A DNA stretch of 64,000 bases, taken from Psychroserpens damuponensis. GTDB lineage: Bacteria; Bacteroidota; Bacteroidia; Flavobacteriales; Flavobacteriaceae. The stretch is taken from the NCBI RefSeq assembly GCF_000826655.1, contig NZ_JXJO01000024.1:124001-188000 (forward strand), written 5' to 3'. A program made the translations under genes and the position numbers. Of this stretch, positions 1,747-62,441 are shown piece by piece. The notes beneath the pieces were generated by a model. It was not told the origin of the DNA. It saw only the letters and a program-made list of their open reading frames with translations, and made no database searches. Position 1 is the stretch's first letter. Every line of letters starts with the position of its first letter.

Positions 1747-2736
1747 TTAACGTGCCAATTTCCGAAGCGCAACCCATTGTTTTAACATTTCTCTGGAGTC
1801 TACTGCAGGATAACCTAACACTGTTTTTCCTGCTTGCACATCATTCATAACTCCAGATCCTGCACCAACTGTTGCTCCAGAATGAATGGTTGTATGATCT
1901 TTAATTGAGGCACTACCTCCAATCATGACACCATCACCAAGTGTTACAGAACCTGCTAATCCGCTACTTCCTGCCATGATACAAAAACGTCCTAAAACAC
2001 AATTATGTCCAATTTGAACCAAGTTATCAATCTTACAGCCATCGCCAAGAATTGTAGAACTAAATTTTCCGCGGTCAACACAAGAATTTGCTCCAATTTC
2101 TACAGCATTTCCTATGACCACATTTCCAATATGTGGGATTTTAACCAAACCTCTACCGTCATCACTAGGTCGATATCCAAAACCATCTGCGCCAATACTT
2201 ACATTGGTATGAAAAATACAGTGACTTCCAATCACAGAGCGTTCTCTAATCACAGTACCAGACCAAATTGTGGTGTGATCTCCAATAGTGGTTTCATCCA
2301 TAATGGTCACATTTGGATATAACACCACACCTGCACCAATAACGACATCTTTACCAATAAAACAACCAGCTCCAACTCTACTACCTTCACCAATTACTGC
2401 TGAATCATCAATATTTGCTGATGGATGGATATCTGTCTCAAAATGTGGCGCATTTGGTGTAAATTCTTCTAATAATTTAGCCATTGCTAAATCGGCATTT
2501 TTAACCTTGATGATCACACGGTTCTCTCCAGGCTCTACATCGATATTGGCATTAGCAATTGCCAATGAAGCATTAGAATCTGCCCACATTGCGGCATATT
2601 TTCGGTTTCCTATAAATGTAGCTTGATTATTATTTGCTTTCTGGATTTGTTCTAAACCTGTGATTTCGTGGGTAGTTTCTCCTAGAATTTCTCCGTTTAA
2701 TAAGGTATTTATCTCTTGTATCGTTAGTGATTTCAT
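1747..2736 (-). CDS. LpxD-like UDP-3-O-acyl-glucosamine N-acyltransferase (paralogue 1)
   Basis: An LpxD-type N-terminal domain (about residues 1-95) is followed by a left-handed beta-helix of hexapeptide repeats (about 100-300). The segments [20 protein letters not shown] and [11 protein letters not shown] match the LpxD substrate loop and the catalytic His region. The known family reaction adds a 3-hydroxyacyl chain to UDP-3-O-acyl-glucosamine in lipid A synthesis. It is one of three LpxD-like genes in this window. The other two sit in the lpx block 55 kb away, and this one stands alone beside glycosyltransferases. Whether it works on lipid A or on another amino-sugar nucleotide is uncertain, so no symbol is given. 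Its last codons contain a copy of TTTCCGAAG (1759-1767). Confidence 0.8.
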
Positions 2737-2898
2737 TGATGTAATTTTAAAAATTATTTAGTTAGTGTGCACAAGATAGTAAATCGTTAGTAATGAATTC
2801 ATCTTGGTTTTTAGTTTCTTTTCTACGGAAATTTTAAAGTAACAAACTATTATTTCTTAAACAGATAAATTCATTTATATTTAACAGCAACTGATACA

Positions 2899-4077
2899 AT
2901 GACTCTAAAACCAGAATTTATTTACATTGCATTTGATGTGTTTCCTTCTCAAAAAGGAGCTGCAACACATATTGAACATTGCCTTAAAGCATTACAAGCT
3001 ACATTTAAATCGGGTTTATTAATTTGTCTAGGCAATGAAGAGATGCCTACTTTTCAATTTGATGAAGAACGACAGCTCTATGTGTACCGTTGGAAAGAAA
3101 AAGTAGTTAATTTTCTAGAACGTACTCAAAAATTTCAGGATGCTGTGACTAAGATTCTCAACCTTCCGCTTTGCGAAAACATACAATTAATTCATTTTAG
3201 AGATATTTGGGGAGGAATTCCCGTTTTGCAACACACTACAACGTATAAGACGGTTTTTGAAGTTAATGCATTTCAACATATAGAATTACCAAATAGATAT
3301 CCAACAATTAGCACTTCGGTTTTAGAAAAAATAAAGCAATTAGAACAGTTTTGTGTGTCACAATCTGACGTTTTAATTACACCCTCTATAGTGACTCAAA
3401 AATTCATTATTACACAGTATAAAGTAAATGCAAATAAAGTTACTGTCATTCCTAATGGTGTGACAATTTATGATGAAGACTCTAAGATTATCACTTTAAA
3501 TCGCGACAAAAATTACATTTTATATTTTGGTGCTTTACAGAAATGGCAAGGCATAAAAACGTTGTTTAAGGCTATTAAGGAATTGAAAGATTTAAATATT
3601 CAATTGGTAATTTGCACCTCTATCCCAGAAAAACGTACTGAAATTCATAAACAGCTAGCTCAAAACATTGGTGTTTTTGACAGTATAAACTGGCATTATG
3701 AATTAAACAAAAAGGAATTGGCTGTTATGATTAAAAATGCCATACTTACAGTGGCACCATTATCTGCTTGTGATCGTAATATTGTACAAGGTTGCAATCC
3801 GTTAAAAATATTAGAGTCAATGTCATATGGTATTCCTGTTGTGGCAAGTGACATTCCTGTTGTGAGAGAACTTATTGAGGATAATGTTACTGGGTTTTTA
3901 GTACCTCCAGATCGACCAGAAGATTTAGGCAGAGCAATTAGAGCATTATTAGAACAACCTGAAAAACTGAAAGCTATAGGCACTCATGCAAAACAACATA
4001 TTAAAAATAATTATCTTTGGATAGATCAAGAGTCAAAAATGAAAACTGTTTATAAAAATCGACTAACTTATGTTTGA
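2899..4077 (+). CDS. Glycosyltransferase family 4 protein
   Basis: This 392-residue GT-B enzyme has an N-terminal Rossmann half that begins FDVFPSQKGAATHI and a C-terminal nucleotide-sugar half. The latter carries VIPNGVTIY, YILYFGALQKWQG and the GNPLKILE-type donor-binding segment (here GCNPLKILESMSYGIPVVAS). It probably transfers a sugar from a nucleotide donor on the cytoplasmic side. The donor and acceptor are unknown. It is the first gene of a six-gene same-strand cluster and overlaps the next gene by 8 bp, so co-translation is likely. It diverges from the LpxD-like gene at 1747. Confidence 0.88.
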   Translation: MTLKPEFIYIAFDVFPSQKGAATHIEHCLKALQATFKSGLLICLGNEEMPTFQFDEERQLYVYRWKEKVVNFLERTQKFQDAVTKILNLPLCENIQLIHFRDIWGGIPVLQHTTTYKTVFEVNAFQHIELPNRYPTISTSVLEKIKQLEQFCVSQSDVLITPSIVTQKFIITQYKVNANKVTVIPNGVTIYDEDSKIITLNRDKNYILYFGALQKWQGIKTLFKAIKELKDLNIQLVICTSIPEKRTEIHKQLAQNIGVFDSINWHYELNKKELAVMIKNAILTVAPLSACDRNIVQGCNPLKILESMSYGIPVVASDIPVVRELIEDNVTGFLVPPDRPEDLGRAIRALLEQPEKLKAIGTHAKQHIKNNYLWIDQESKMKTVYKNRLTYV

Positions 4078-4960: not shown

Positions 4961-4970
4961 TTTCAGCACT

Positions 4971-5396: not shown

Positions 5397-5405
5397 ACAC
5401 TTACA

Positions 5406-6530
5406 ATGACGATAACCTGGTTTACAGAAAATTATCCGCCAAATAAAGGAGGCATGTCTAGAAGTTGTGATCGTATCATCACAAATCTTAGAAAACATCA
5501 TACCATTCACATTTACCATTTTACTAATAAATGTAATGCCTTTTCTACTAAAACTCATGAAAACGGTTCCTATACAGCAGTCCCTGTTTTTGAAGATAGC
5601 TCTCACACCCTTAACATGTTATGGGCTTTTATTAAAGATAAGATTCATGTTAAAAATAGTGATTTGTACGTAGGCTTTGGAAGTCATTTGAACATTAAAG
5701 GCATTACGCTTATTTCAAAATGGCTGCAAAAACCAATTGTAATTTGCTTTAGAGGTAATGATTTTGATACCGCTATTTTTTCTCAAAAAAAGCAAGATTT
5801 ACTGTACAGTATTGAAAACGCCTCTGCCATTGCTTGCGTGACCAAAGAAAAGGTAAATCGCATTAAAAGCATGCACCTTAATCCTCATGTGTTTTTTACT
5901 CCAAACGCTATTCATTTTGAAAATTGGCAAATTTTAAAAGCAGATATTACCCTTTCCAACCGATACAAAACCGAATTACAGCTAACAAAAACAACAAAAG
6001 TTATAGGCCTAGTTGGATTTTTAAAACAGAAAAAAGGGATTGATTTTTTTATAAATTCTCTTCGGAAATCTCAACTTCTCAACACTGTTCATTTGCACAT
6101 AGTTGGTGAATTAGAACTCCATATTGAGGACATGTTACAATTGTATGATATTTCGTACTCTAAAGTAATTCCAGAATCTAAAAGCGAATTAATTGCTCAT
6201 TATTTAGTTTGTGACGCTGTTGCAATTCCTTCTATTTATGATGGAATGCCAAATGTTATTTTTGAAGCAGCAGCTTTAAACATTCCAGTAATAGCGTCTA
6301 GAGCTGGCGGAATTCCTGATATTTTAAACCAACACAATGCATTTCTCTTTGATGTACTTTCTGAAACATCGCTACTCCAAGCTTTATCAGCTTTTGATCA
6401 AGCTGATAATGAAAATTTAGAATCAAAAATAAAACAACTAAAGCTAACACTTCAAAATGAGTTTAGCACATCCCATGAAACTCAACATTATTTAGATATC
6501 TTTAATCACATAACATCCACAAACCTATGA
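5406..6530 (+). CDS. Glycosyltransferase family 4 protein
   Basis: This 374-residue GT-B enzyme has an N-terminal motif ENYPPNKGGMSRSCD, the Gly-rich opening typical of the family. The C-terminal half carries VIGLVGFLKQKKGIDFF and the donor site SIYDGMPNVIFEAAALNIPV. The EX7E motif appears here as Asp-x7-Glu (DGMPNVIFE), a conservative change. GGIPDIL follows as in active members. It is the second GT4 of the operon. The start is 9 bp after the Cys/His-rich gene, and the stop overlaps the lipoprotein gene by 4 bp (ATGA). The sugar and acceptor are unknown. Confidence 0.87.
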   Translation: MTITWFTENYPPNKGGMSRSCDRIITNLRKHHTIHIYHFTNKCNAFSTKTHENGSYTAVPVFEDSSHTLNMLWAFIKDKIHVKNSDLYVGFGSHLNIKGITLISKWLQKPIVICFRGNDFDTAIFSQKKQDLLYSIENASAIACVTKEKVNRIKSMHLNPHVFFTPNAIHFENWQILKADITLSNRYKTELQLTKTTKVIGLVGFLKQKKGIDFFINSLRKSQLLNTVHLHIVGELELHIEDMLQLYDISYSKVIPESKSELIAHYLVCDAVAIPSIYDGMPNVIFEAAALNIPVIASRAGGIPDILNQHNAFLFDVLSETSLLQALSAFDQADNENLESKIKQLKLTLQNEFSTSHETQHYLDIFNHITSTNL

Positions 6531-7084: not shown

Positions 7085-7903
7085 ATGCATGTTTTTTATG
7101 CTCAAGGTGGCGGATTAGGACATTTAACACGAGTAGACACACTTATCAAAACCTTAGATATCCCTAAACGAGAGGTGATTATCATAACGCCTTCGGTATT
7201 TACCAATTATTTTAAAGGGTATCAATTTGTGCGGTTACGTTGGGATGAACATCATTATGATTGGGCGAAGACAATTGTACACACGCTTAAAAAATATCCG
7301 GTGACAAGGTTTTATGTGGATACGTTTCCATTTGGTTTAAAAGGCGAATTAAATCTGGTATACAGCACATTTCCGAAGTTAACGTACATCTACATTTCTA
7401 GAGTTTTAAAGTGGGATTTCTATACATCAACTGTAACCCAAAAAGCGTCTATTATTTTTTACAACACCTTGCTTTTAGAACCTTTATATGACGCACATTT
7501 AAATTGGATTACTTCTCATTCTACATCTGTAACACCAATAACTTTAAAAAGAGAAAGCCTCACTCCTATTTGTTACATGAAATCGGCTTATGTTTTGGTA
7601 GTACATTCTGGAGGAAAAGACGATGTTTTAAAAATTTGTAAGCAAGCCATTGAAGATTACAAAACACAAAATTCTATAAAAATTGTAGTGTTTACACAAG
7701 TTCATGTACACATTGAGAATGATAATGTTGTTGTAAAAAACGATGTATATCCTGTATCACAATATTTTGAAAATGCAATAAAAATTTATACAGCTGGAGG
7801 ATTTAATAGCATGCATGAATTAAAAAACTACAAAGAAAAACATGTTGCAGTAGCTTTAAATAAGTTATATGACGACCAAGAATTTAGAATTTTGAACTTA
7901 TAG
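7085..7903 (+). CDS. GT28/MurG-like glycosyltransferase
   Basis: The protein opens with MHVFYAQGGGLGHLTR, a Gly-rich loop like that of MurG and related GT-B enzymes. It ends with YTAGGFNSMHEL and a DDQ-type motif (YDDQEFRI), features of the nucleotide-sugar half. At 272 residues it is shorter than most relatives. The stop follows the DDQ motif closely, so the usual last helix may be reduced or missing. The start abuts the lipoprotein stop, and the end overlaps the convergent DUF6090 gene by 6 bp. It is the last gene of the cluster. The donor and acceptor are not evident. Confidence 0.75.
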   Translation: MHVFYAQGGGLGHLTRVDTLIKTLDIPKREVIIITPSVFTNYFKGYQFVRLRWDEHHYDWAKTIVHTLKKYPVTRFYVDTFPFGLKGELNLVYSTFPKLTYIYISRVLKWDFYTSTVTQKASIIFYNTLLLEPLYDAHLNWITSHSTSVTPITLKRESLTPICYMKSAYVLVVHSGGKDDVLKICKQAIEDYKTQNSIKIVVFTQVHVHIENDNVVVKNDVYPVSQYFENAIKIYTAGGFNSMHELKNYKEKHVAVALNKLYDDQEFRILNL

Positions 7904-9324: not shown

Positions 9325-9365
9325 TTATTACGTTGTTGGTTAATCTAATCACTCAAATATAAACA

Positions 9366-9403: not shown

Positions 9404-9434
9404 TAATTTTATTTTTTTCTTCGGAAATTCTAAT

Positions 9435-11912
9435 TTATTTGGGATCTAAGATCTCTTCAATACGTTTTACTAAATCTCTATAATGATACTTCGTCACTGT
9501 ATTAACCTGTCTGTTTCCGGCAGCTGCCACTTGACGTTTAAGCGTATTTAACTCACCACGAACTAAGGCTCTAACATCACTTTGTGATACATTATAATAA
9601 TCATCATTTCGTCTAGACTCTAAATCTTGAGTCATTAAAAACGCCATGCGATCTACATAAGCACGTTGTAAATTTCTACGGTACACATCTACATTTTTAG
9701 TGATTTTCGCTTCAGAAAACACACCTTTTCGTAAATCTTGCATCATTGTTAATGCACTGTAATTTGTAGCATCAATACTTTCGTGATCTATTAAACGTCC
9801 CAATTTATCAAAACTTAATAAACTGTTTAAATATCTGCTTTGCAAGCGTCTTAATCGCTCTGTATATCCATTATAATCAATATTTTGAAGCAAGGTTTTA
9901 TCTACTAACCAACGTGGTGTTTCAAAAGCATTGTCATGTAACCATTGCATGGATTGTTGTTGTTTTAACTTCGGAACAGCTTGATAAGCAATGCCACCTT
10001 GGCTTGGTGTAATTAAATGCTCTTCAACACCACCAACATTTCCTAAAACGTGACCAACATATCTATTATAACAACCCAGTAATTCACCATACAACTCTTC
10101 TAAATCCTCATAATTATTAGTTTGACTGCTCGTCCATTGCGGAAGATTTTGAGCTACATATTTCAGATTTTTAAGCGCATAATTAGACGCTTTTATGGCA
10201 TCGTTACCAATATCTTCTGTTTGCGACGTAGGGTCAAATCTAGACCGTTGCCTTCCGAAGACATATTTTGGATCACCTGCTTTATCCATTATCCATTGAT
10301 CTAGCGTTGTTTTTTCAGCTTCAGCCGAAAATGTGCCAGGAATATTACGATATCCCCAATTTATGGCATAATGATCGTAAGGACCTATTTGACGAACAAA
10401 CCTAATATTCTCATCTCCAGGTTGGGCTATATAATTGTAACGTGCATAATCCATAATTGTAGAGGCAATACCAAACTCTTGCGTAAAAGCACCATTTCTA
10501 TAACTCTCTACATCATAAGCTTTACTCGCGCTCATATTATGAGGTAAACCTAAGGCATGACCTACCTCATGGGCAATTACCATTTTCATCATTTCGCCAA
10601 TATCTTCAGCAGGTGTATCTAAGGTTCTTGCACTTGGATTTGCCGCACCTGTTTCTAACAAATATCGATTTCTATATGAACGTAAATGGTTATGGTACCA
10701 TATAATATCACTTTCTATAATTTCACCACTACGAGGATCAGACACACTTGGTCCCATTGCATTTCTAGTTTCACTAGCTACATATCTAATCACAGAATAC
10801 CTAATATCTTCTGGGCTAAAATCTGGATCTTCCTCTTTTGTTGGTGGATATTTAGCAATAATTGCATTTTTAAAACCTGCACTTTCAAAAGGTTCTTGCC
10901 AAAGCTCAATACCTTCTTTTATGTATTTACGTAAACTTTCTGGTGTTGCCGGATCCAAATAATATATAATAGGTTTTACTGGCTCTACCAATTCGCCTCT
11001 TGCATAAGCTTCAGGGTCTTTTGGTTCTAAACGCCATCTTTGAATGTAGGTTTTGCGATCTGCTTTTAGCTTCTCACTACCGTAGTCAACTTGACTAAAA
11101 GTAAACCAACCTACACGATCATCGGCAAAACGCGGTTGCATAGGTTTTTCTGGTAGTAAAATCATAGATTGATTCATTTGTAAACTAATCGTTTCTGCAG
11201 ATCTCGCTGAAGGCGGATTAGATGCATTATATGTCATGTCTTGTACGACTTCTATATTTTGCGGAAAACTCTTCATACCATTTATAAAACTACGTGAAGC
11301 ATCTAAATTTCTAACCTTATATGAACTTCTTAAATAGCTTGGCAAACCACTAATAGCCTTAACATCACTACTATAAAATTTTGTCACATCAACCACTATA
11401 GCGGTAGAGTCTTTACTAAATGCAACAATATCAAATCCAAATAATGTAGGTTCATAATTATTAGATTTTACTGAAATGCTAATTGGCAACTCTTCATCGG
11501 CCACAGCATTATACGATCGTTCTTTAATTAACACTTTATTATCAAAACGCTGCCAAGCTACAAGTCGCTCGCCTGTTTTTGAGCCTGCATTAATATAACC
11601 TCCTCCTAAATTGGCTGGGATTTTTGCTATTCTACTTACTAGGAGCATATCTTTTCCTAAATGCTCATTTGGAATTTCAAAAAAGTACTTCTCTCCTACT
11701 TTATGAACTTTAAATAAACCATCATCTGTAATAGCATCTTTGGTAATGACCTTATCATAAGGTTTTATTTTGCCTTGATTTTTTTTAGGTGCAGGTTGAG
11801 CAACTTCCGTAGTATTCTTTTTTTTACGCTTACTTTTTTTAGACTGTGCTTGATGAGTTAAAGGCATTAATGACATGAGTAATGCCAATGCATACAGAAA
11901 CGTTTTTTTCAT
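9435..11912 (-). CDS. Secreted zinc metalloprotease (DUF5117/DUF5118 type)
   Basis: This 825-residue protein starts with a clear signal peptide (MKKTFLYALALLMSLMPL, cleavage after an Ala-Gln-like site). A very basic Lys/Arg stretch follows, then the DUF5118 and DUF5117 regions in about residues 45-300. The metzincin motif HEVGHALGLPH lies near residue 445 with a downstream Met-turn STIMDYARYNY. The three His are the zinc ligands and the Glu is the catalytic base. It should act in the periplasm or at the cell surface. Its substrate is unknown. It is transcribed alone, with a terminator downstream. Confidence 0.9.
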   Translation of the reverse strand: MKKTFLYALALLMSLMPLTHQAQSKKSKRKKKNTTEVAQPAPKKNQGKIKPYDKVITKDAITDDGLFKVHKVGEKYFFEIPNEHLGKDMLLVSRIAKIPANLGGGYINAGSKTGERLVAWQRFDNKVLIKERSYNAVADEELPISISVKSNNYEPTLFGFDIVAFSKDSTAIVVDVTKFYSSDVKAISGLPSYLRSSYKVRNLDASRSFINGMKSFPQNIEVVQDMTYNASNPPSARSAETISLQMNQSMILLPEKPMQPRFADDRVGWFTFSQVDYGSEKLKADRKTYIQRWRLEPKDPEAYARGELVEPVKPIIYYLDPATPESLRKYIKEGIELWQEPFESAGFKNAIIAKYPPTKEEDPDFSPEDIRYSVIRYVASETRNAMGPSVSDPRSGEIIESDIIWYHNHLRSYRNRYLLETGAANPSARTLDTPAEDIGEMMKMVIAHEVGHALGLPHNMSASKAYDVESYRNGAFTQEFGIASTIMDYARYNYIAQPGDENIRFVRQIGPYDHYAINWGYRNIPGTFSAEAEKTTLDQWIMDKAGDPKYVFGRQRSRFDPTSQTEDIGNDAIKASNYALKNLKYVAQNLPQWTSSQTNNYEDLEELYGELLGCYNRYVGHVLGNVGGVEEHLITPSQGGIAYQAVPKLKQQQSMQWLHDNAFETPRWLVDKTLLQNIDYNGYTERLRRLQSRYLNSLLSFDKLGRLIDHESIDATNYSALTMMQDLRKGVFSEAKITKNVDVYRRNLQRAYVDRMAFLMTQDLESRRNDDYYNVSQSDVRALVRGELNTLKRQVAAAGNRQVNTVTKYHYRDLVKRIEEILDPK

Positions 11913-16018: not shown

Positions 16019-17256
16019 TGGAGCAAGCACAATGTTTTTTTTACGATTATTTTATTTCTATTGGCATATCTGACTTATCTGCCAAATATTTTAATATGAT
16101 GGTATTACTCCTCATATTATTAGTCTTTATTTATTTAGCCGATCGTATTACTAGAAGAATTTTGATTAATCTCTTCGGAAAATTTTCTGAGCAAACTAAG
16201 ACTAATTTTGATGACCTTTTAGTAAATAATCGAGCTCCAAGTAACATTGCGCATCTTGTACCATTAATTTTAACTATAAAATTGTTTCCATTTGTTTTCA
16301 AAGATTTTCCTCAGTTTGAAACAAATATATTAATGCTTCTAAAAGTGTGTGCTATCGTACTTACACTTTGGATTATACGTAGCATACTTAAAACTTTTGA
16401 AGCGTATTTTAAAACCTTACCAAGATTAAAAGACAAACCTATTGATAGTTACATTCAAGTGGTTATGCTTTTTCTTTGGATTGTAGGTGTTGCCTCAATT
16501 TTAGCGATATTAATTAACTTATCATTCTTAAAATTCTTTACAACTCTTGGTGCTGCATCAGCAGTATTATTATTGATTTTTAAGGATACAATTTTAGGTT
16601 TTGTTGCAAGTATACAAGTTGCAATTAACGATAGTGTTAGAATTGGAGATTGGATTACCATGGAAAAATATGGAGCCGATGGTGATGTGATTGAAATAAA
16701 TTTATCTACTGTACAGGTTCAAAATTTTGACATGACGATTACTAATATTCCAACTTATGCCTTGATTTCAGATTCATTTAAGAATTGGAGAGGAATGACA
16801 TCATCTGGTGGAAGACGTATTAAGCGATCAATTATTTTAAAAGCAAAAAGTATTAAGTATTTAAGTAATGATGATATTGAAAAGCTTAAAAAAATTGAGT
16901 TAGTCACGAGCTATCTTACACAACGTCAAAAAGATATTAATGCGTCAAATACTGATAAAAGTGTTGACAAATCTGTTTTGATAAATGGACGAAACATGAC
17001 CAATCTTGGTGTGTTTAGAAAGTATTTACAAACGTATGTTGAGCAACACAGTGCTGTTAATAAAGATATGTTTATTATGGTAAGACAGTTAGCGCCTACG
17101 TCTCAAGGCTTGCCTTTAGAAATATACTGTTTTAGTAGTGATAAACGCTGGGAAAATTACGAGTATATTATGAGTGACATATTTGATCATGCACTTGCTG
17201 CTGTACCCTATTTTGATTTAGAAATATTTGAATTAAATGCAGGACTTGTAGAGTAA
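16018..17256 (+). CDS. MscS-family mechanosensitive ion channel (YbdG-like, long form)
   Basis: This 412-residue protein has an N-terminal set of membrane helices (about residues 20-40, 75-92, 100-120 and 145-170). The pore-lining TM3 and beta domain of MscS follow, recognised by LLIFKDTILGFVASIQVAIND and VRIGDWITMEKYGADGDV (about 185-230). The long cytoplasmic C-terminus has an insertion typical of the YbdG/MiniMscS subgroup. It should act as a membrane tension-gated safety valve. The start overlaps the DUF3817 stop by one base. A second, shorter MscS relative lies at 19444-20349. Confidence 0.9.
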   Translation: MEQAQCFFYDYFISIGISDLSAKYFNMMVLLLILLVFIYLADRITRRILINLFGKFSEQTKTNFDDLLVNNRAPSNIAHLVPLILTIKLFPFVFKDFPQFETNILMLLKVCAIVLTLWIIRSILKTFEAYFKTLPRLKDKPIDSYIQVVMLFLWIVGVASILAILINLSFLKFFTTLGAASAVLLLIFKDTILGFVASIQVAINDSVRIGDWITMEKYGADGDVIEINLSTVQVQNFDMTITNIPTYALISDSFKNWRGMTSSGGRRIKRSIILKAKSIKYLSNDDIEKLKKIELVTSYLTQRQKDINASNTDKSVDKSVLINGRNMTNLGVFRKYLQTYVEQHSAVNKDMFIMVRQLAPTSQGLPLEIYCFSSDKRWENYEYIMSDIFDHALAAVPYFDLEIFELNAGLVE

Positions 17257-17649: not shown

Positions 17650-17958
17650 ATTTTATATGTTAATGCTTTTAAAGTTTAAGACCTCAAAAGGTGTGTTATG
17701 TTTTATGTTTAGAAAAGAATGCTATTGCTTTTAACAGTTTTGAGTTTTTAAAATTTCCGAAGTAAAAATAACAGTTAAACGTCTGCTCCTCTTCAAATCA
17801 AATGTAGGCGTTTATTATGGAACCTTGTTAGTTTACTAATTAGAAAAAACTATAAATATATAGTCATACTAAATTTGTTAATAACACCGTTGAAAACATA
17901 TAAGTTAGCCGTTTAATTCACCCTTACATAATCTCTATATTTAATAAAAATTAAAGCC
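17650..17958. other. Divergent intergenic region (309 bp) without a gene
   Basis: This is the space between the start of the thioesterase gene and the start of the gene at 17959. No reading frame with coding character was seen. It holds one copy of TTTCCGAAG (17754-17762) and a weak inverted repeat AAACGTCT / AGGCGTTT around 17777-17815 (8 bp with a wobble, loop over 20 nt). Promoters for both flanking genes must lie here, but I could not assign boxes with confidence. Confidence 0.5.
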
Positions 17959-25192: not shown

Positions 25193-25231
25193 TTATTACT
25201 ATTATTTTTCTTTTAATTTTCTTCGGAAATA

Positions 25232-43728: not shown

Positions 43729-45012
43729 TTACTTTAAATCATTTAATCTTAGTGTTACTGCATTTTTATGCGCTTGTAAACCTTCAGCCTCTGCCATTAA
43801 CTCTATAGTTGTACCAATATTTTGAATACCTTCTTTTGATATTTTCTGAAATGTGATACTCTTCGTAAAACTATCTAAATTAACTCCAGAATAGGCTTTA
43901 CTAAACCCGTTGGTTGGCAATGTATGATTGGTTCCAGAAGCGTAATCTCCTGCGCTTTCTGGTGTATAATTACCAATAAATACAGATCCAGCGTTTGAGA
44001 TATTATCAACATAAAAGTCTTCATTTTTTGTGCAAATAATAAAATGTTCTGGCGCATATTCGTTAATGAGATCTAGAGCCGTTTCATCGTTCTCAACATA
44101 AATTAATTTAGAATTGTCAATTGCCTTTTGTGTCATTTCTTGTCGAGGTAACAGTTTGATTTGCTGTTCAATTTCCGAAGAGACATCATTTATAAGTTGC
44201 TTTGATGTCGACACTAAAATCACTTGACTATCTGCTCCATGTTCGGCTTGGCTCAACAAATCTGAAGCCACATAACTTGCTTTTGCGGTATCGTCTGCCA
44301 CAACTAGTAATTCACTTGGACCTGCTGGCATATCAATGGCAACACCATATTTTGTAGCGAGTTGCTTTGCTACAGTTACATATTGATTACCTGGTCCGAA
44401 AATTTTATAAACCTGCGGAATGGATTCTGTTCCAAACGTTAAACCTGCAATAGCTTGAATTCCTCCTACCTTTATAATTTTTGTGACACCACATAATTGG
44501 GCAGTGTACAAAATTTCATTGGCAATTTTGCCGTCTTTATTTGGTGGAGAACATAATACGATTTCCTTACAACCTGCGATATTTGCTGGTACAGTTAGCA
44601 TTAAAACTGTAGAAAACAAAGGTGCTGTGCCACCAGGAATGTATAATCCTATTTTTTGGATTGGACGTTTTTCCTGCCAACATTCAACGCCTTTTGAAGT
44701 TTTAACAGAAACGCGATTTGTTTTTTGTGCTGCATGAAATATTTCAATATTTTGTTTTGCTGTTTGGATGGCAACTTTCAAGTTTTGAGACACTAAACTT
44801 GACGCTTTTTCAATCTCTTCTGAAGAAACAATCATAGACTCTAATTGAACACCATCAAATAACTCGGTATATTTTGAAACTGCCTTATCGCCTTGTCGCT
44901 GAATATCTGTAAAAATTTCGGAAACGGTGTTTTCTATATTTTCAACGGTTTGTGTTGGCCTTTTTAATAATTCTGACCAATCTGCTTTGGTTGGGTTAAG
45001 TAGTGTTTTCAT
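43729..45012 (-). CDS. hisD: Histidinol dehydrogenase
   Basis: This 427-residue enzyme has VGLYIPGG-like GLYIPGGTAPLFSTVLM, FGPGNQYVTVAKQLA, DMPAGPSELLVVAD and LSQAEHGADSQ with zinc/catalytic residues. The C-terminal GSVFIGNYTPESAGDYASGTNH segment is also present. It performs the last two oxidations, histidinol to histidine, with NAD. The start overlaps the hisG stop by one base. Confidence 0.97.
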   Translation of the reverse strand: MKTLLNPTKADWSELLKRPTQTVENIENTVSEIFTDIQRQGDKAVSKYTELFDGVQLESMIVSSEEIEKASSLVSQNLKVAIQTAKQNIEIFHAAQKTNRVSVKTSKGVECWQEKRPIQKIGLYIPGGTAPLFSTVLMLTVPANIAGCKEIVLCSPPNKDGKIANEILYTAQLCGVTKIIKVGGIQAIAGLTFGTESIPQVYKIFGPGNQYVTVAKQLATKYGVAIDMPAGPSELLVVADDTAKASYVASDLLSQAEHGADSQVILVSTSKQLINDVSSEIEQQIKLLPRQEMTQKAIDNSKLIYVENDETALDLINEYAPEHFIICTKNEDFYVDNISNAGSVFIGNYTPESAGDYASGTNHTLPTNGFSKAYSGVNLDSFTKSITFQKISKEGIQNIGTTIELMAEAEGLQAHKNAVTLRLNDLK

Positions 45013-45869
45013 TATAATACCATGTTTTCAATTGGACATACTAAAATACCTTCGGCTCCATTTTGTTTGAGTTCATCAATAACTTCCCAAAATTCATTTT
45101 TATTAATAACCGAGTGTAATGAACTCCAGCCTTCTTTTGCTAGTGGCAAAATGGTTGGACTGTTCATTCCTGGTAAAAGATTGATGATGGTTTCTAGTTT
45201 TTCATTAGGCGCATTTAATAATACATATTTGCTTTGCCTGCCACGAAGAACAGATTGTAATCTAAACTGTATTTTGTTTAAAATTTGTTGATTTTCCGAA
45301 GAAATTAAAGGAGAAACTGCTAATACAGCTTCAGATTTTAGAAGGACTTCAACCTCTTTTAATCCATTTTTAAATAGCGTACTTCCACTAGAAACAATAT
45401 CTACAATGGCATCTGCCAACCCAATATTTGGAGCAATTTCAACCGAACCGTTTATAATGTGTAAATTAGCATTTACATTATTTTTATCTAAAAATTGATT
45501 AACTGTATTTGGATATGACGTCGCTATACGTTTGCCTTCTAAGTCTTTTATAGTGTTATACGTTGTAGATTTTGGAACTGCAATTGAGACTTTACAAGAT
45601 GAGAATCCTAATTTTTCTATGATGGTAATACCATTTCCTTTTTCTATTAAAACATTCTCTCCAATGATTGCTACATCAACAACACCGTCTTTTAAATATT
45701 GAGGAATATCACCATTTCTGAGGTAAAATACTTCTAAAGGAAAATTCTTTGCAGATGCTTTGAGTTGATCTTTACCATTGTCTATAGAAATCCCAATATC
45801 TTTTAGGATTTTCATAGAATCTTCATTAAGTCGTCCTGATTTTTGTACAGCTATTTTTAATTTTTTCAT
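45012..45869 (-). CDS. hisG: ATP phosphoribosyltransferase (long form)
   Basis: This 285-residue protein has the catalytic domains (LKIAVQKSGRLNEDS, VDVAIIGENVL and IVDIVSSGSTLFKNGLKEVE, which binds PRPP). A C-terminal ACT-like regulatory domain occupies about residues 210-285, so this is the hexameric long form inhibited by histidine. It catalyses the first step. It is the first structural gene of the operon and follows a leader peptide and attenuator. Confidence 0.97.
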   Translation of the reverse strand: MKKLKIAVQKSGRLNEDSMKILKDIGISIDNGKDQLKASAKNFPLEVFYLRNGDIPQYLKDGVVDVAIIGENVLIEKGNGITIIEKLGFSSCKVSIAVPKSTTYNTIKDLEGKRIATSYPNTVNQFLDKNNVNANLHIINGSVEIAPNIGLADAIVDIVSSGSTLFKNGLKEVEVLLKSEAVLAVSPLISSENQQILNKIQFRLQSVLRGRQSKYVLLNAPNEKLETIINLLPGMNSPTILPLAKEGWSSLHSVINKNEFWEVIDELKQNGAEGILVCPIENMVL

Positions 45870-47529: not shown

Positions 47530-49563
47530 TTAAATAAGTCCGTTGTATTTTCTAATAAACCACTCAGCTGCTAGACTTAAAGCAATGAGTATTAACAGGT
47601 ATTTCCAATCTATCAAAGGTACAACTTTTTTAGTGCTTTTTTGAATGGTTGCAAACCTAGAATCGTTTATTAAATCATCAATTAATGTTGATGTATCCTC
47701 AATAAAATAAGAGGTTGCATCACTATTAGTCGCTAAGGTTTGAAGTTTTGTTACATTAGCATTTAAAAATTGTTGCTCTACATTGTAATCTAGAATTTTA
47801 AGCGTTCCAGATTTTGAAATATTCTCATTATTCACCTTGACTGTAAATGTATAGTCTCCAGCTTCTAATCCGCTTAAATCAACTTCGTAACTAGCGTTTT
47901 TGAGTACGAAGGGCAGCGTTTTTTCATTGGTAGTTTCACTATTTTTTAATATTATGTTTAAATCTACATTGTCTTCAAATTCATAATTTTTATTAAAAAA
48001 CTGAGCTGTAATTTTTACATTATCATTACCATTATAAAATGACTCGTAATTAACGTTTAAGCGTGTTCTGCGTTGATTAGTACTTAAATATTGTACTAAT
48101 TTCCCTATAAAATTATCAAACGTATTGAAGGAGTTTTCATTAAGATACGCTTGGGCTCTCCATCTCCATAACCCTTCTCCTAGAATTAAGGCTTCGCGTT
48201 TATCATTAATTTCAAAAGTTGCTAAAAGTGGTTCATCAATTTGAGTTCCGTTTATGGTTTTGTACAGTATAGTTTCAAAAGGGACAGTGAAAGAGGTTTG
48301 GCCAAATGCTCCATGTAACGGCGGAAATTCGCTAAAATTTAAGTTATCAACTATAAAAGTTCCATAGTTAGGATTTAAACTTGGTTGATACTCTTCATCT
48401 TGACGAGTTATTTCTTGCTTATAATTACTTTGCAATTGATTAAGTAATGACCAATTTGTTTTTGTACCCGTAATAACAATTTTATTGAGCTTTAATTTGT
48501 CGATTTCTTTAAATAAAGCTCTAAAATTATTGGTTGGTTGATATACAATTACCAATTGATAATCATTGGATGTATTTAAAAACTCAAGTGTTGATACAAT
48601 ATCTGCATTGCGTTGCTCATTGCTTTCAATTGATTTTTTAAGTGCTCCTAAATCTGGATGCAATATATCTGAAACAATAGCCACGTTTGTTTTTTGATCT
48701 ATAACTTCAACCGCAAAATTCTTGACGTTATTAATCGTGTTTTTTTCGTTATCTAAAGGCACAACTTGTGCTTTATAAGTTGAAACTCCTACTCTATTTG
48801 CTGGTAATGTGAAGTTAACAATTTGCGACGTTTGAGTTTTACTAAAGGTTAAGGGTTTTGAAAATACGGTTGCATTTCCTACAGAAATTTTTAATTGTGT
48901 ATTAACTGTTGAGTTTCCATTATAAGTTGCTATGACTTCTACTGGGAACTTATTTTTTAAATACGCATAACGATTCACATTTAATTGTTGAATTTTCAAA
49001 TCTGTATACGTTATCGTGTCTCCTAAAATAACCGGAAACACAGATTGTTTATAGCGTTTGGTCATGTAAGCATAATCGTTTCCGTAGGTTTGGTTTCCGT
49101 CGGAAATGATAAGGGTTGGAGAAATGGTGTTGTTGTACACTTCTGATAAGCGTTCAAACACTAAAGCGAGATTAGACTGCTTTTCATTGAAACTTAAAGA
49201 ATCTGATTGTTGCAGCTCTTTTCCGAAGCTATAAAACTCAACATCAAAATTCTCGTTTAAGGCGTCGTTTGCTTTTAAATTTTGAATTAAATCTAAAGTA
49301 TTTTGTGATTGTTTAAGATAGGTTACAGATTCTGAATTATCTACAGCCACCACTAAATTTGGTTTTTCGTTGTAATACGTAACTTTATCAAATTTAGGAT
49401 TTATCAATAATAAAAAAATGGAGAAGTATGTTACAAAACGAAGCGCAGTTAATACCCAAGCACGTTTACCTTTGAGTTTAGATTTAAAAGCATACTGAAA
49501 AAGCGCTAATGCTAACGCTATAATTCCTGCTATTATGATAAATGTTAAGGTTTGGGTTTGCAA
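47530..49563 (-). CDS. Membrane protein with VWA-like domain
   Basis: This 677-residue protein has two N-terminal helices (about residues 7-24 and 37-55). A VWA-like domain follows with a MIDAS-type motif VAVDNSESV (D75-x-S-x-S) and LIISDGNQTYG. A long beta-rich periplasmic region comes next, then a C-terminal helix (WKYLLILIALSLAAEWFIRKY). This matches the large Bacteroidetes VWA membrane proteins, related in layout to BatA-like proteins. The function is unknown. The downstream prohibitin suggests a joint membrane role. Confidence 0.75.
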   Translation of the reverse strand: MQTQTLTFIIIAGIIALALALFQYAFKSKLKGKRAWVLTALRFVTYFSIFLLLINPKFDKVTYYNEKPNLVVAVDNSESVTYLKQSQNTLDLIQNLKANDALNENFDVEFYSFGKELQQSDSLSFNEKQSNLALVFERLSEVYNNTISPTLIISDGNQTYGNDYAYMTKRYKQSVFPVILGDTITYTDLKIQQLNVNRYAYLKNKFPVEVIATYNGNSTVNTQLKISVGNATVFSKPLTFSKTQTSQIVNFTLPANRVGVSTYKAQVVPLDNEKNTINNVKNFAVEVIDQKTNVAIVSDILHPDLGALKKSIESNEQRNADIVSTLEFLNTSNDYQLVIVYQPTNNFRALFKEIDKLKLNKIVITGTKTNWSLLNQLQSNYKQEITRQDEEYQPSLNPNYGTFIVDNLNFSEFPPLHGAFGQTSFTVPFETILYKTINGTQIDEPLLATFEINDKREALILGEGLWRWRAQAYLNENSFNTFDNFIGKLVQYLSTNQRRTRLNVNYESFYNGNDNVKITAQFFNKNYEFEDNVDLNIILKNSETTNEKTLPFVLKNASYEVDLSGLEAGDYTFTVKVNNENISKSGTLKILDYNVEQQFLNANVTKLQTLATNSDATSYFIEDTSTLIDDLINDSRFATIQKSTKKVVPLIDWKYLLILIALSLAAEWFIRKYNGLI

Positions 49564-51527: not shown

Positions 51528-51561
51528 GAATTATAATATTTCCGAAGAAATTGAGATAAAA

Positions 51562-54537
51562 TTACATCTTGACTTCTTCTGGTTGCTCATAATTAAATAG
51601 ATAATCAATATCCATTTCTTGAAGCTTACCTAATTTTTCTAATGATTTGAAATCGATGTCTTTTTTATTACCAATTACCATCACGTTGTAGTTTTCGCCT
51701 TTAATATTAGAGTTGAAAAAATCACGTAAATCATCCATAGTCATGTTTTTTATGGTATTGTACAATTCTTCTCTATTATCGTTATCGATTCCTAATTTTT
51801 TAAGTCGTTCGTAACTCCAAAATATACCAGATTTAGTAATACGTTGTGCTGCTAATTTCTTCAATGTTGCCTCTTTAGCTGCATTAAATTGCTCTTCTGC
51901 TTCTGGCATGTTTGTCATTAACTCCATCATAGCATCAACGGCTTGTGGCATTTTGTTGGCTTGCGTTCCCATGTAGGCCATCACATAATTGTTGTTCTCC
52001 TTTTTACTGGCATTGCTATAGCTTGAAAATGCCGAGTAAGCCAATGATTTAGATTCTCTAATTTCTTGGAAAACGATGGATGATAATCCGCTACCAAAAT
52101 ACGTATTAAACAATGTTGAAGCTGCCATATTCTCTGCTTTAAAAGGATCTCCTTTTGCTAAGAATAACATTTCAGATTGTACCATATCAAAATCAACGAA
52201 GTATACATTTCCTCCAGTTTCTTTTTCTAGATAAGCCATTGCTTCTGGGTAGGTTTTTAATTCTTCGGAAACTTTATGACTCGTATTTAAAGCTGCTACA
52301 GCTGCATCGATATCTTTTCCGTAGTAAAAAATACGTTGTTCAAAATCTTTCATTCCTTTTACGATATCTACTAATTGAGCAGGATCCATTGCATTAAGCT
52401 CTTTGGTTTGGTAGATGTTTCTTAAACGCGAATTTTCCCCATATTTACCGTAATTCATTAAACCGTTCCAAAGAATATTTCCTTTTTGCGATTTACCATC
52501 TACTCTACCTTTTGTGATTGACTCTACATATTTTGTATAGGCTTCTTGATCTGGCACAGCATTGTTCCAGAGATGCTCTAAAAGTTCTAATCCTTTAGGC
52601 AAGTTTTCTTTAAGACCGTTTAATCCAACATAGGTTGTTTCTGCTCCTGCACTTACATAATATTTAATACCTAATTTGTAAAATTCTTTCTTTAATTCTT
52701 CAGCAGAATATTTATCAGTACCTAGATATTCCATATAACCAGCAGCCAATCCTAACTTTTTATCGTTATCGCTACCCATATCAAAAATGATATTCATATC
52801 GAATAAATCATTCATTTCATTCTCTATATAAGACACTTTAATACCGTTATCTAAGTCTGTTTCTTTGATTGCTTCTTTGTAATTAACGAACTTAGGTTGT
52901 AAATCTTCAGACTCTATTGCATTAAAATCTTGCATGTATTGAGATGTTTTGTCTCTATTTAAATTCACAGGTGTAATTCCTGGATTAGCAACTTTTACAA
53001 TAGACGTATCTTCACCTTGACGCTTGTATGTTACAACGTAGTTATCTTTATAAAATCTGTTAGCAAAATCAACAACTTCTTGTTTGGTTACTTTTTTTAA
53101 ATCGTCTAAAAATTTCACTTTATTAGCCCAATCTTCATGATGAATAAACGCATTATAATACATAGACGCTAAGGCAGTACTATTTTCATATTGTTGTGTT
53201 TGACTTAATTTTAAATCATTAACAACAGCATCAATCATCCAATCTTCAAACTCACCTTTTTTAAGTTTTTCTATTTGCGCTAAAATTAAATCTTTAACTT
53301 CATCAAGAGTTTGCCCTTCTTTTGGAGAACCATCAAAAGAATGATATCCATAATCGTTTAAAAATGTTGGAGAGCAACCTGCATATTGTACTGCTTGTTT
53401 TTGATTTAAATTTAAATCAATTAAACCAGCGTTACCGTTTGCCAAAATCATATCGGCAACCGTCATTAATTTTTCTTCTTCGGTATTTACACCTTTAGAT
53501 CTAAATGCAATAGAAACCGTTTCTGCTGTAGGGCCAAAAACTTCTTTTATTATAGGAGAAGTAATAGGATCTTCTTTTGGAAGTGTAGGGTGTACAACCT
53601 CTTTCTTTTCTAGTTTACCAAAAGTTTCATTTACTTTTTTAATTGTTGCATCAAAATCCAAATCACCTACTAATACCATTGCCATGTTATTTGGCACATA
53701 ATATTTCTCAAAATAATTATTAATATCTACTAATGACGGATTTTTTAAATGCTCAGCAACTCCTATTGTTGATTGTTGACCATAAGGATGATTAGGAAAC
53801 AAACCTTCTAACATTGCTGCATAGCTTTTTCTATAATCGTTATCTTGACCTCTATTAAATTCTTCAAAAACAGCTTCTAATTCTGTGTGAAATAATCGTA
53901 ATACAAGCTCACTAAAACGTTCGCTCTCTAATGCTAACCACTTATTTAATTCATTAGCAGGTATTTTATTTTTGTAAACTGTTTCTTCAAACCACGTATG
54001 TGCATTTGTACCAGTTGCTCCAAGCGAGCTCGTCATTTTATCATACTCATTAGCCACACTAAAATTTGAAGCCTCTAAAGACACTTCATCAATTTTTTTA
54101 TATAAGGCTAATTTTTTATCAGGATCAGATTCTGCTCTGTGTTGCTCATACAAATCTGAAATTTGATCTAAATACGCTTTTTCTTTTTCCCAGTCTACTG
54201 TACCTACTTCGCTTGTACCTTTAAACACCATATGTTCTAGATAATGTGCTAATCCTGTAGATTCTTTTGGATCATAATTAGAGCCAGCTCTTACTGCGAT
54301 GTAGGTTTGAATTTTTGGTTCTTCTACGTTTTTACTGAGGTACACTTTTAATCCGTTTTCTAAGGTATACAGACGTAAACCTGTTGGGTCATTTGTTACT
54401 GTTTCGTAAGCAATGCCATTGGCATCTTTGTTAGATTTAACTGCGTAAGCCAAATCTTTGTTGTTGTTGTTTTCTGTTTTACAATTGTACGCAAGCGCGA
54501 CAATACAAAACAACATGATTAGTTTAATGTGTTTCAT
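51562..54537 (-). CDS. M16 family zinc peptidase, lipoprotein
   Basis: This 991-residue protein has a lipobox AYNC with Cys19. Two pitrilysin-like halves follow. The first carries the inverted zinc motif HYLEH (H98, E101, H102) with a downstream Glu ligand region ELEAVFEEFNRG. The second half lacks the motif, as usual for the non-catalytic half. It should be a membrane-anchored periplasmic or outer-membrane peptidase that degrades peptides. It is monocistronic. Confidence 0.93.
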   Translation of the reverse strand: MKHIKLIMLFCIVALAYNCKTENNNNKDLAYAVKSNKDANGIAYETVTNDPTGLRLYTLENGLKVYLSKNVEEPKIQTYIAVRAGSNYDPKESTGLAHYLEHMVFKGTSEVGTVDWEKEKAYLDQISDLYEQHRAESDPDKKLALYKKIDEVSLEASNFSVANEYDKMTSSLGATGTNAHTWFEETVYKNKIPANELNKWLALESERFSELVLRLFHTELEAVFEEFNRGQDNDYRKSYAAMLEGLFPNHPYGQQSTIGVAEHLKNPSLVDINNYFEKYYVPNNMAMVLVGDLDFDATIKKVNETFGKLEKKEVVHPTLPKEDPITSPIIKEVFGPTAETVSIAFRSKGVNTEEEKLMTVADMILANGNAGLIDLNLNQKQAVQYAGCSPTFLNDYGYHSFDGSPKEGQTLDEVKDLILAQIEKLKKGEFEDWMIDAVVNDLKLSQTQQYENSTALASMYYNAFIHHEDWANKVKFLDDLKKVTKQEVVDFANRFYKDNYVVTYKRQGEDTSIVKVANPGITPVNLNRDKTSQYMQDFNAIESEDLQPKFVNYKEAIKETDLDNGIKVSYIENEMNDLFDMNIIFDMGSDNDKKLGLAAGYMEYLGTDKYSAEELKKEFYKLGIKYYVSAGAETTYVGLNGLKENLPKGLELLEHLWNNAVPDQEAYTKYVESITKGRVDGKSQKGNILWNGLMNYGKYGENSRLRNIYQTKELNAMDPAQLVDIVKGMKDFEQRIFYYGKDIDAAVAALNTSHKVSEELKTYPEAMAYLEKETGGNVYFVDFDMVQSEMLFLAKGDPFKAENMAASTLFNTYFGSGLSSIVFQEIRESKSLAYSAFSSYSNASKKENNNYVMAYMGTQANKMPQAVDAMMELMTNMPEAEEQFNAAKEATLKKLAAQRITKSGIFWSYERLKKLGIDNDNREELYNTIKNMTMDDLRDFFNSNIKGENYNVMVIGNKKDIDFKSLEKLGKLQEMDIDYLFNYEQPEEVKM

Positions 54538-54555
54538 TTAGATTGATTTAGTTGT

Positions 54556-54594: not shown

Positions 54595-54633
54595 TAACGT
54601 AAAAGTTTTGTGTTTATTTTAACAAGAAATATC

Positions 54634-55509: not shown

Positions 55510-55661
55510 TTGTGTTTGTTTTATTGCCTTTTTTCTTCGGAAATTTAAAATTTTAAGAAGTTATAGGCTATTTATGATTTTGATTTTATGTTTTTGTGTA
55601 TTCAGTTGATATTTCCGAATAATGACAAAAATAAGATATTGCTTATTATTTTTAAACCTTT

Positions 55662-57002: not shown

Positions 57003-57023
57003 GTTGTTTAGTATACAGGTGGT

Positions 57024-57085
57024 GATTTACAGTTTACAGTCTCGAGTGAGTATGACTTACTTAAGACTGACTACTGCTTCTTAAT
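57024..57085. repeat. Repeat-like spacer between efp and the LpxD-like gene
   Basis: The spacer contains a direct repeat TTTACAG-TTTACAG and further short CAGT/ACTG/GACT units (for example GACTGACTACTG). This low-complexity pattern resembles CAGT-type intergenic repeats I recall from other flavobacteria. It has no coding character. Confidence 0.35.
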
Positions 57086-57088
57086 GTC

Positions 57089-57655: not shown

Positions 57656-57741
57656 TTTTTTGGTGTTTTGTATTTAGTGTATTGTTTTGCGTTATTGAAT
57701 TAAACGCAAGGGTTTGGTGTTATTTAGTTTCCGAAGAAAAC

Positions 57742-58527: not shown

Positions 58528-58609
58528 TTTTTTAATTTTTTTGATACATATTAAGTTATTTAAAACTTAATAAAATTGATTGATGCGCTAAAAATACGTT
58601 AAATATTGT

Positions 58610-61031: not shown

Positions 61032-61214
61032 CTTCGCAAAAATAGGAAAAATGTATAAATAAAAGTTAGGTGTTGAGTTGTTTGTTGTTAGGTCTCCTCA
61101 ATTTTAATACTAATTGTAATGTTTTTGTGAGGTTTAACTTTAAAATGTTTTACTTCGGAAATTCTAAAATTCAAAAACATAGCCTCTGTATTCTAAACAT
61201 TTACAAAACTTAAA

Positions 61215-62441
61215 CTATTCAATTTTAGGATAACAGATATAATATTTAGTAATGGATTTAGACAAGGCCTTTATATTAAATTGATCTGATGCTTTGGTGA
61301 TATCAACCACTCTACCCGATTTTTGTAATATTTTTATTTTTTGCGTTTTTGATTGATACGCCAAATTTGAAATCTCATCAATAAACACAAAATACTCAGC
61401 TTCTTTTTTAGAGATATTATGTTTTTCCATAAGTTGAGACTTATGTTTATCTAATGTAGAGCGTTTTATTGGTTTATTTTTAAGCTTAATTTTTAACAAA
61501 TCTCTGTTAATAATCATACTACTTAGTTCGCTTAGCACAAAGTCATCATGGTATTGCCAATCTTTCATTGCCGAAACAATATCTGTATCATCCAATCTAG
61601 AGAAAATCTCTAAGGTATCATCATTAAAGTTATTATTAGAAATTTCATTCCGAAGAAAAAATGACAACGCATCACTTGCTCTTAAAGTTACACCTTGTCG
61701 CGATAACTCTTTGGCTCTTTTTAATACACGAGTTAAAAGTTGCTCTGCTACTACACCTGTTTTATGAAGATAAACTTGCCAATACATAAAACGTCTAGCT
61801 ACTAAAAATTTCTCAACACTGTAAATGCCTTTTTGCTCAACAACGAGTCGGTCATCAACTACATTAAGCATGGTTATTAATCGTTCGCTATTTACATTAC
61901 CTTCTGCAACGCCTGTATAAAAACTATCGCGTTTGAGATAATCTGCTCTATCCATATCAAATTGGCTAGAAATAAGTTCACATAAAAACGGTCTATCGTA
62001 CTTGCCTTCAAAAATTTGAATGGCTAGCGTTAAACTTCCGTTAAATTCTTCATTGAGTTTTTGCATAAAACGCATTGAAATTTCTTCATGTGAAATTCCA
62101 TTTACAATACTATGCTCCATGGCATGAGAGAATGGACCATGACCAATATCATGCAATAAAATGGCGATATAGAGCGCTCTTTCTTCTTCTTCAGAAATCG
62201 TAACACCTTTAAAACTAAGAACATTCACCGCTTTCTGCATAAGATACATGCAACCTATAGCATGATGAAATCTTGTATGATTTGCTCCTGGATATACAAG
62301 ATACGATAAACCCATTTGAGAAATTCGTCTAAGCCTTTGGAAATATTTATGTTCAATTAAGTCAAAAATATCCGAATTTGGAATAGTAATAAATCCGTAA
62401 ATTGGGTCGTTAAAGATTTTAAGTTTGTTACTTGTCTTCAA
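61215..62441 (-). CDS. HD-domain phosphohydrolase (dGTPase/SamHD1-like)
   Basis: This 408-residue protein has the HD metal motif set HTRFHHAIGCMYLM and LLHDIGHGPFSHAMEH (His...His-Asp), followed by QFDMDRADYLKRDSFYTG. It belongs to the YdhJ/SamHD1-like branch, which includes nucleotide triphosphohydrolases. The substrate is unknown. It diverges from porX with only 36 bp between the starts. In its upstream direction it is separated from lpxD by 183 bp containing a TTTCCGAAG copy. Confidence 0.9.
   Translation of the reverse strand: MKTSNKLKIFNDPIYGFITIPNSDIFDLIEHKYFQRLRRISQMGLSYLVYPGANHTRFHHAIGCMYLMQKAVNVLSFKGVTISEEEERALYIAILLHDIGHGPFSHAMEHSIVNGISHEEISMRFMQKLNEEFNGSLTLAIQIFEGKYDRPFLCELISSQFDMDRADYLKRDSFYTGVAEGNVNSERLITMLNVVDDRLVVEQKGIYSVEKFLVARRFMYWQVYLHKTGVVAEQLLTRVLKRAKELSRQGVTLRASDALSFFLRNEISNNNFNDDTLEIFSRLDDTDIVSAMKDWQYHDDFVLSELSSMIINRDLLKIKLKNKPIKRSTLDKHKSQLMEKHNISKKEAEYFVFIDEISNLAYQSKTQKIKILQKSGRVVDITKASDQFNIKALSKSITKYYICYPKIE

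Follow-up and report, generated by a model that had tools for sequence, protein, structure and literature searches.

A 2006 account knew of no uptake sequences beyond the Pasteurellaceae and the Neisseriaceae (PMC1626085), and later papers still name the same two families in their titles and the opening lines of their abstracts. In Pasteurellaceae, the uptake signal sequence (USS; core AAGTGCGGT) is described as a 9-bp core with an AT-rich 3' flank, which is found in both orientations, prefers non-coding DNA, and extends over the family with dialects (PMC1626085). For Haemophilus, DNA recovered following uptake has been sequenced (PMC7811141). In Neisseriaceae, the DNA uptake sequence (DUS; GCCGTCTGAA) has the minor pilin ComP as its reader. 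It amounts to hundreds to thousands of copies with no strand bias, is distributed atypically in acquired DNA (PMC7371117), and varies as dialects between species (PMC3630211). Here we analyzed a 64-kb stretch of the Psychroserpens damuponensis genome (C24:124001-188000, termed the window), which lies in a 393-kb contig of an assembly comprising 3.95 Mb in 106 contigs and carries 26 copies of the 8-mer TTCCGAAG. The nearest relatives agree with an assignment to Psychroserpens: for one 825-aa protein, identity was 89% to P. burtonensis, 86% to P. algicola, 84% to P. jangbogonensis, up to 91% to uncultured Psychroserpens, and 90% to Arcticiflavibacter luteus. By analogy with the two systems above, we regard TTTCCGAAGnnA followed by A-rich DNA as probably being a USS.

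Apart from the pilin reader, the features listed above for the USS and the DUS have counterparts in Psychroserpens and its relatives. On the other hand, the core is unrelated to that of Pasteurellaceae, which belong to another phylum, the spacing is irregular, words with a single mismatch to the core (one-offs) are relatively more numerous, and the bias toward gene ends described for Pasteurellaceae (PMC2346458) is not seen; furthermore, six motif-rich genomes are without the ATPase family of type IV pili and type II secretion systems (T2SS). The core differs from that of the DUS as well, inverted pairs show no excess, and no pilin reader was identified. In the literature searched, whose coverage left out most subscription papers and preprints so that earlier reports may exist, no uptake motif of flavobacteria or other Bacteroidota was found, judging from titles and the opening lines of abstracts; for flavobacteria, this agrees with the first-pass annotation of the window. 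Within the same coverage (few subscription papers or preprints), neither TTCCGAAG nor CTTCGGAA appeared as a whole word in any paper searched.

Abundance, consensus and placement of the motif

The first-pass annotation had proposed counting the word across the genome against expectation, and the count proved to be far above chance: the 3.95-Mb genome contains 573 copies of TTTCCGAAG on the + strand and 561 on the - strand (1134 in total), while the reversed pattern used as a control was found 26 + 36 = 62 times. In a sample of 462,575 bases of this genome, which is termed G000 (the window and 20 stretches picked by place, not content), TTCCGAAG was the most over-represented 8-mer with 192 copies against 4.85 expected (z 85; counting on the unjoined stretches gave 191, presumably because one copy spans a stretch end). 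Around the 192 copies, T was preferred at position -1 (70%) and A at position +10 (75%). The best extended form is TTTCCGAAG followed by A at +10, with A-rich DNA around and after it, and the flanks have little in common except for this A-rich tail.

The perfect core was 39-fold over expectation, as opposed to 1.6-fold for the one-offs taken together. The 24 kinds of one-off amounted to 327 copies in G000 against 200 expected, and the excess over chance was thus 187 for perfect copies and 127 for one-offs. The commonest one-off was TTCTGAAG (45 vs. 19.7 expected), and TTCCGTAG (35 vs. 5.8), TTCGGAAG (28 vs. 4.9; in part CTTCCGAAG read on the opposite strand), TTCCGCAG (25 vs. 3.8), TGCCGAAG (25 vs. 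2.8), and TACCGAAG (25 vs. 5.1) were in excess as well; TTCCGAAT (3 vs. 9.7), TTCCGAAC (1 vs. 5.0), and TTTCGAAG (5 vs. 12.7) were under expectation. A second Psychroserpens genome assembled into a single contig (G006), represented by 20 evenly spaced 20-kb samples, contained 250 perfect copies and 372 one-offs (226 expected), the commonest of which occurred 63 times.

Coding and intergenic copies were separated by gene calls following a simple longest-ORF (open reading frame) rule. In G000, there were 159 coding copies in contrast to 9.2 ± 2.9 in 20 synonymous-codon shuffles, and 33 intergenic copies in contrast to 0.37 expected (89-fold). The same pattern was repeated in G006, with 207 coding copies (13.4 after shuffling) and 40 intergenic copies (0.56 expected). 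In both samples the motif was denser between genes than within them: the intergenic and coding densities per kb were 0.712 and 0.391 in G000, and 0.860 and 0.597 in G006. The coding copies occupy all six frames, if unevenly, and the frames yielding Ser-Glu, Phe-Gly, and Pro-Lys are favoured. Shuffling left 6% of the coding copies, so the reservation of the first-pass annotation, that codon pairs with no intergenic excess might account for the word in full, did not hold, and codon usage was rejected as the cause. The distribution over strands, which had also been recommended for inspection, showed no bias in the G006 samples with the sign of GC skew in each 20-kb sample as the guide (120 leading and 130 lagging; p 0.57), and a strand-oriented site was rejected. 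Intervals between divergent genes held 12 of 64 intergenic copies and made up 15.1 of the 70.7 kb of intergenic DNA counted; the copies are not concentrated upstream of genes.

The largest copy-free gap in the 462 kb spans 38 kb (C1:161737-199848; GC content of 0.29-0.32), and the only other gap exceeding 12 kb is C2:111243-124089 (12.8 kb). The ORFs in the 38-kb gap, named by eye from their sequences without a family search, encode glycosyltransferases, acyltransferase-like membrane proteins, sulfotransferase-like proteins, and an ABC-2 type exporter with its ATPase. Judging from these predicted products, the gap is a surface-polysaccharide locus, and loci of this kind are exchanged between strains. 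Two of the 20 G006 samples hold only 2 copies each, the mean being 12.5.

In the window itself, the recount reproduced what the first-pass annotation had reported: 26 copies of TTCCGAAG, every position being exact, 21 of which extend to TTTCCGAAG, with the two orientations about equal (14 on + and 12 on -) and 7 copies intergenic. Its estimate of one or two copies by chance compares with 0.59 under an order-2 Markov model and 1.09 from composition alone. The intergenic copies, all in the form TTTCCGAAG, are at 17755..17762, 51540..51547, and 57729..57736 on the + strand and at 9419..9426, 25221..25228, 55535..55542, and 61153..61160 on the - strand. Inside genes, TTTCCGAAG lies at 1760..1767, 7371..7378, 33819..33826, 35691..35698, 44173..44180, 45294..45301, and 49221..49228 on the + strand and at 6060..6067, 16173..16180, 20729..20736, 33607..33614, 34734..34741, 42873..42880, and 52263..52270 on the - strand. 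The five remaining copies, also inside genes, consist of the core TTCCGAAG only (10253..10260, 25807..25814, 42221..42228, and 61648..61655 on +; 9969..9976 on -).

Distribution and conservation among relatives

Among 23 Psychroserpens genomes, the count of TTTCCGAAG ranged from 110 to 1347, a 12-fold spread. Across the Flavobacteriaceae, a hand tally gave 32 of 395 genomes, belonging to 15 genera, with at least 300 copies (one of them, G152, reaching only about twice its own control), and many of the remaining genomes had counts near or under the reversed control. Outside the family, none of the 237 Bacteroidia genomes sampled (taken from 246 surveyed) exceeded 203 copies, a number reached by a genome of 7.7 Mb in which the control matched 131 times.

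The core TTCCGAAG was the top 8-mer in G309, G034, G428, G426, and G457 and the second in G049, and in each of these six genomes A was the most frequent base at +10. In 60-kb samples, the core was over expectation by factors of 9.2 (G309), 10.8 (G034), 24.6 (G428), 9.3 (G426), 4.2 (G457), 5.3 (G049), 8.0 (G277), 4.9 (G140), 3.9 (G353, 6 copies), and 2.6 (G156, 7 copies), as compared with 0-2.1 in samples of unenriched genomes (5.1 on 3 copies in G130). The motif-poor Psychroserpens genomes G020 and G002 gave 8.0 (4 copies in 40 kb) and 6.3-6.4, respectively. The motif in G428 looks like a dialect: its left part is longer, 84% of 19 copies having A at -4 and -2.

A tree of 33 genomes built from one gene and rooted at the midpoint, with many of its forks weak and G013 left out, gathered most of the motif-rich genera into one group; g8 and Psychroserpens represented further rich lineages beside poor relatives. 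This tree does not distinguish an old origin followed by losses from a spread by transfer. The conservation of positions in relatives, another point that the first-pass annotation had recommended following, was above expectation: of 81 comparisons, each of one site with one genome, 29 showed the site of the own genome intact, when about 9 were predicted from 8-mers matched in GC and CpG (both sums added by hand from the listed rates). These comparisons aligned two regions of the own genome and reused 14 sites across up to 13 genomes, and thus give a direction rather than a p-value. At the single locus from another genus (L127 of G031), 0 of 3 sites were intact.

Per perfect copy, the excess of one-offs amounted to 4.2-4.5 in G002 and in a pool of eight genomes, all motif-poor Psychroserpens, as against 0.6-0.7 in G000 and G006; four rich Psychroserpens, combined in a small pool, gave 1.7. 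Part of this excess is TTCTGAAG, which is common in motif-free genomes as well. Five other near-matches exceeded expectation 3.4-fold in G002 and 4.9-fold in the pool of eight, but 1.2-fold in G020, which is also motif-poor (2 copies in 40 kb); in 11 samples free of the motif, the factor was 0.6-2.1. As a sign of eroding tags in motif-poor Psychroserpens, the near-match excess is suggestive only.

No clear second uptake word was found in 40-200 kb of each of ten unenriched genomes, with one lead in G045 (L274-L276), where 60 kb contained CTTTGGCA 26 times (2.8 expected) and CTTTGGCAAAG 10 times (0.09 expected). These words lie partly within a longer repeat and may represent another uptake word or a small palindromic repeat. 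Two repeats of other kinds were noticed in the genomes sampled. The 20-kb stretch L302 (G002:C1:2000001-2020000) contains 25 AACAACGTGTATAA-like sites, 20 of which share one orientation and which are mostly several hundred bases apart; this resembles an array of cassettes and may be a chromosomal integron. At L298:13763-16550 (G156), a 237-bp unit is repeated in tandem about 12 times.

Candidate uptake machinery and receptors

The only competence gene searched for, comEC, was present in all of the 16 genomes searched, motif-rich or not. Matches to the family of PilB/PilT/GspE ATPases (PF00437) exceeded the cut-off in half of the 22 Psychroserpens genomes searched (11), in a patchy manner that did not follow the motif, and the own genome has one such match (G000:C19:26142-27251). 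PF00437 was not above the cut-off in the motif-rich G003, G005, G006, G014, G016, and G018, in a search limited to the ATPase and not extended to pilins or the secretin (G003 and G006 are single-contig assemblies, and G018 is 88% complete). Since these six motif-rich genomes appeared to be without the ATPase family, a type IV pilus is improbable as the general reader of the word, and the receptor would probably be something other than a type IV pilin.

Riemerella offers another frame. Transposon mutants of R. anatipestifer showed that transformation needs RA0C_RS04915, a barrel protein with CarboxypepD_reg, and its neighbour RS04920 with DUF5689, as well as ComEC, DprA, ComF, RecA, an HHH protein, and a DUF1343 protein (PMC8459023), and TonB mutants showed reduced transformation, which their authors partly put down to iron (PMC8383284). 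R. columbina was reported to take up its own DNA preferentially; a search for repeats by the same authors yielded no such motif, their k-mer table listing A/T-rich words only (PMC7965970). In the own genome of the window, adjoining genes at L125:6631-10873 encode a 926-aa barrel protein, with CarboxypepD_reg and a weak TonB-plug match, and then a 493-aa protein (L125:9392-10873) with DUF5689, a choice-of-anchor J match above the cut-off, and a match to the M949_1556 lipoprotein of NCBIfam below the model cut-off. Compared by domains and not by sequence, this pair is equivalent to that of R. anatipestifer in both domains and order. The gene comEC is likewise shared with Riemerella. Because the ATPase family is missing from several of the richest genomes, a Riemerella-like route comprising a TonB-type barrel and a surface lipoprotein would be a likelier frame than a pilin.

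Three candidates for the receptor were examined. The first is a 583-aa protein with DUF5689 (PF18942) and a sorting domain of the type IX secretion system (T9SS), encoded at L117:8763-10514 (contig C16). With presence defined as at least 44% identity over nearly the whole 290-aa query, it was found in 8 of 23 Psychroserpens genomes, with counts of the motif being 425-1347 in these and 110-513 in the other 15 (Mann-Whitney p 2e-4, ignoring relatedness), 12 of which match the front part of the query only. We did not accept this candidate: a tree of 19 of the 23 genomes (only a paralogue of the marker was obtained from the other four) leaves few independent events, G031 and G080 carry a relative of the protein without enrichment of the motif, and the enriched G029 and G034 are without it. 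The slot of this gene, upstream of a LuxE-like gene (L117:8763-10514; L211-L240), is occupied by quite different T9SS-sorted proteins depending on species, or by none, and a PhoB-type regulator is beside it where in view.

The second candidate, a jelly-roll T9SS protein of about 320 aa in the same gene slot in other genera, was surveyed (E below 1e-20) in 80 genomes chosen by eye and detected in 6 of 17 Psychroserpens genomes, in 21 of the 34 further genomes whose counts were raised, and in none of the 29 whose counts were not. The 12 of the 21 carriers included in the 33-genome tree all fall in one group, so the association may reflect shared descent, and the motif-rich g8 is without this protein; it was not accepted either. 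The third, a lipoprotein resembling R. anatipestifer RA0C_RS04920, was dismissed as a DUF5689 match was found in 30 of 30 genomes and the occurrence of its various types is not in line with that of the motif. Its gene tree is scrambled relative to the species, as expected of a fast-exchanging surface gene. The corresponding loci (L125:9392-10873, L241-L267, L112, L114, L115) have long branches, with DUF5689 doubled in some genera. No relatives of the barrel protein, the lipoprotein, or the 583-aa protein were found among solved structures except for the sorting domain.

Assessment of the explanations and significance

High copy number, occurrence in both orientations, independence from codons, intergenic enrichment, a sharp consensus, presence in other genera, variation within a genus, the copy-free polysaccharide locus, and comEC together lead us to read the motif as an uptake signal. 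If this is correct, the DNA-uptake machinery would prefer TTTCCGAAGnnA, and fragments bearing it would enter the cell and recombine with the chromosome more frequently than those without, leading to accumulation of the word, by analogy with the classical cases. The organism would then be naturally competent, a surface or outer-membrane protein would read the word, and preferential uptake would maintain it. The traits shared by USS and DUS comprise copy number, lack of orientation bias, preference for non-coding DNA, predominance of perfect over mismatched copies, presence in relatives, regular spacing, and inverted pairs (PMC1626085). Of these, abundance, the absence of an orientation bias, the preference for non-coding DNA, and occurrence in relatives are seen here, and the AT-rich 3' flank adds to the likeness with the Haemophilus USS. 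The footprint thus displays most of the published genomic traits, with the exceptions of regular spacing and of perfect over mismatched copies in raw totals, and with inverted pairs that are present but not in excess. Because the defining trait of the class is stimulation of uptake and the motif is known here from its genomic footprint, its likeness to uptake sequences is better supported than its membership in the class.

Several observations weigh against an uptake signal. More-than-random regularity of spacing was not seen (coefficient of variation of gaps, 1.40 vs. 0.99 ± 0.07 for random placement in G000; 1.00 vs. 1.06 ± 0.09 in G006), there was no bias toward gene ends (p 0.88 and 0.67), the copies being even along genes, and pairs less than 60 bp apart in the two samples (n = 16) comprised 8 inverted and 8 direct ones, the inverted pairs thus being without excess. 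The one-offs outnumber the perfect copies in G000 until chance is subtracted, which makes the likeness to the classical USS somewhat weaker. The density of 0.42-0.63 cores per kb is below the value of about 1 per kb in the classical cases, comEC does not track the motif, and neither does any receptor gene cleanly among the three candidates.

Of the readings raised by the first-pass annotation, an uptake-signal-like sequence fits the footprint better, uptake itself being argued by analogy, while an oriented recombination site does not agree with the lack of replication orientation. A site similar to Chi, attenuating AddAB or RecBCD, or one that guides FtsK along the chromosome would likewise be a short, frequent, asymmetric word present in coding and non-coding DNA. 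Nevertheless, sites similar to Chi or to the FtsK-orienting polar sequences are oriented with replication and the motif is not, which disfavours this explanation; a 40-fold excess is far beyond that usual for Chi, and tenfold variation in one genus ill suits a core recombination signal. We therefore consider it quite improbable. An intracellular protein, such as a nucleoid-associated protein, a global regulator, or a genome-organising factor, whose sites are kept by selection, is the strongest of the rivals, albeit still unlikely: the non-coding preference, the conservation in relatives above matched 8-mers, and the number of near-matches are in its favour, but the contrast between perfect copies and one-offs is sharper than usual for regulatory sites, the count differs 12-fold among congeners, and the copies are even along genes and not concentrated upstream.

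A drift of sequences to TTCCGAAG, caused by biased mutation or repair or by DNA modification, would agree with the equality of strands and with both coding and non-coding DNA being affected, but the intergenic density is nearly twice the coding one, and we give this explanation little credence. Finally, the motif might arise secondarily, from codon pairs, from terminators, or from a small mobile element, in favour of which are the preferred Ser-Glu, Phe-Gly, and Pro-Lys frames and the reverse strand CTTCGG, which could form a UUCG loop. This is the least credible of the explanations, given the loss of nearly all coding copies upon synonymous shuffling and the flanks sharing little beyond the A-rich tail; with only half of the close pairs inverted, terminators or hairpins are not supported as the cause.

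Returning to the uptake signal, we tentatively advance a more specific version, with clearly less confidence than the general one: the motif may be a self-DNA tag of the Flavobacteriaceae's own, the reader may be a TonB-barrel/lipoprotein pair or a T9SS-secreted protein at the surface or outer membrane, and the tags may be eroding after the loss of the reader in some Psychroserpens. If the motif is indeed an uptake signal, uptake specificity would have originated independently in another phylum, and self-recognition at the DNA level would have arisen more than once, possibly with a different machine. The outer-membrane DNA receptor of flavobacteria would become approachable via motif DNA, and the 12-fold spread of copy number in a single genus would serve as a natural experiment on why tags accumulate. 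The motif would also provide a practical handle for transforming marine flavobacteria.

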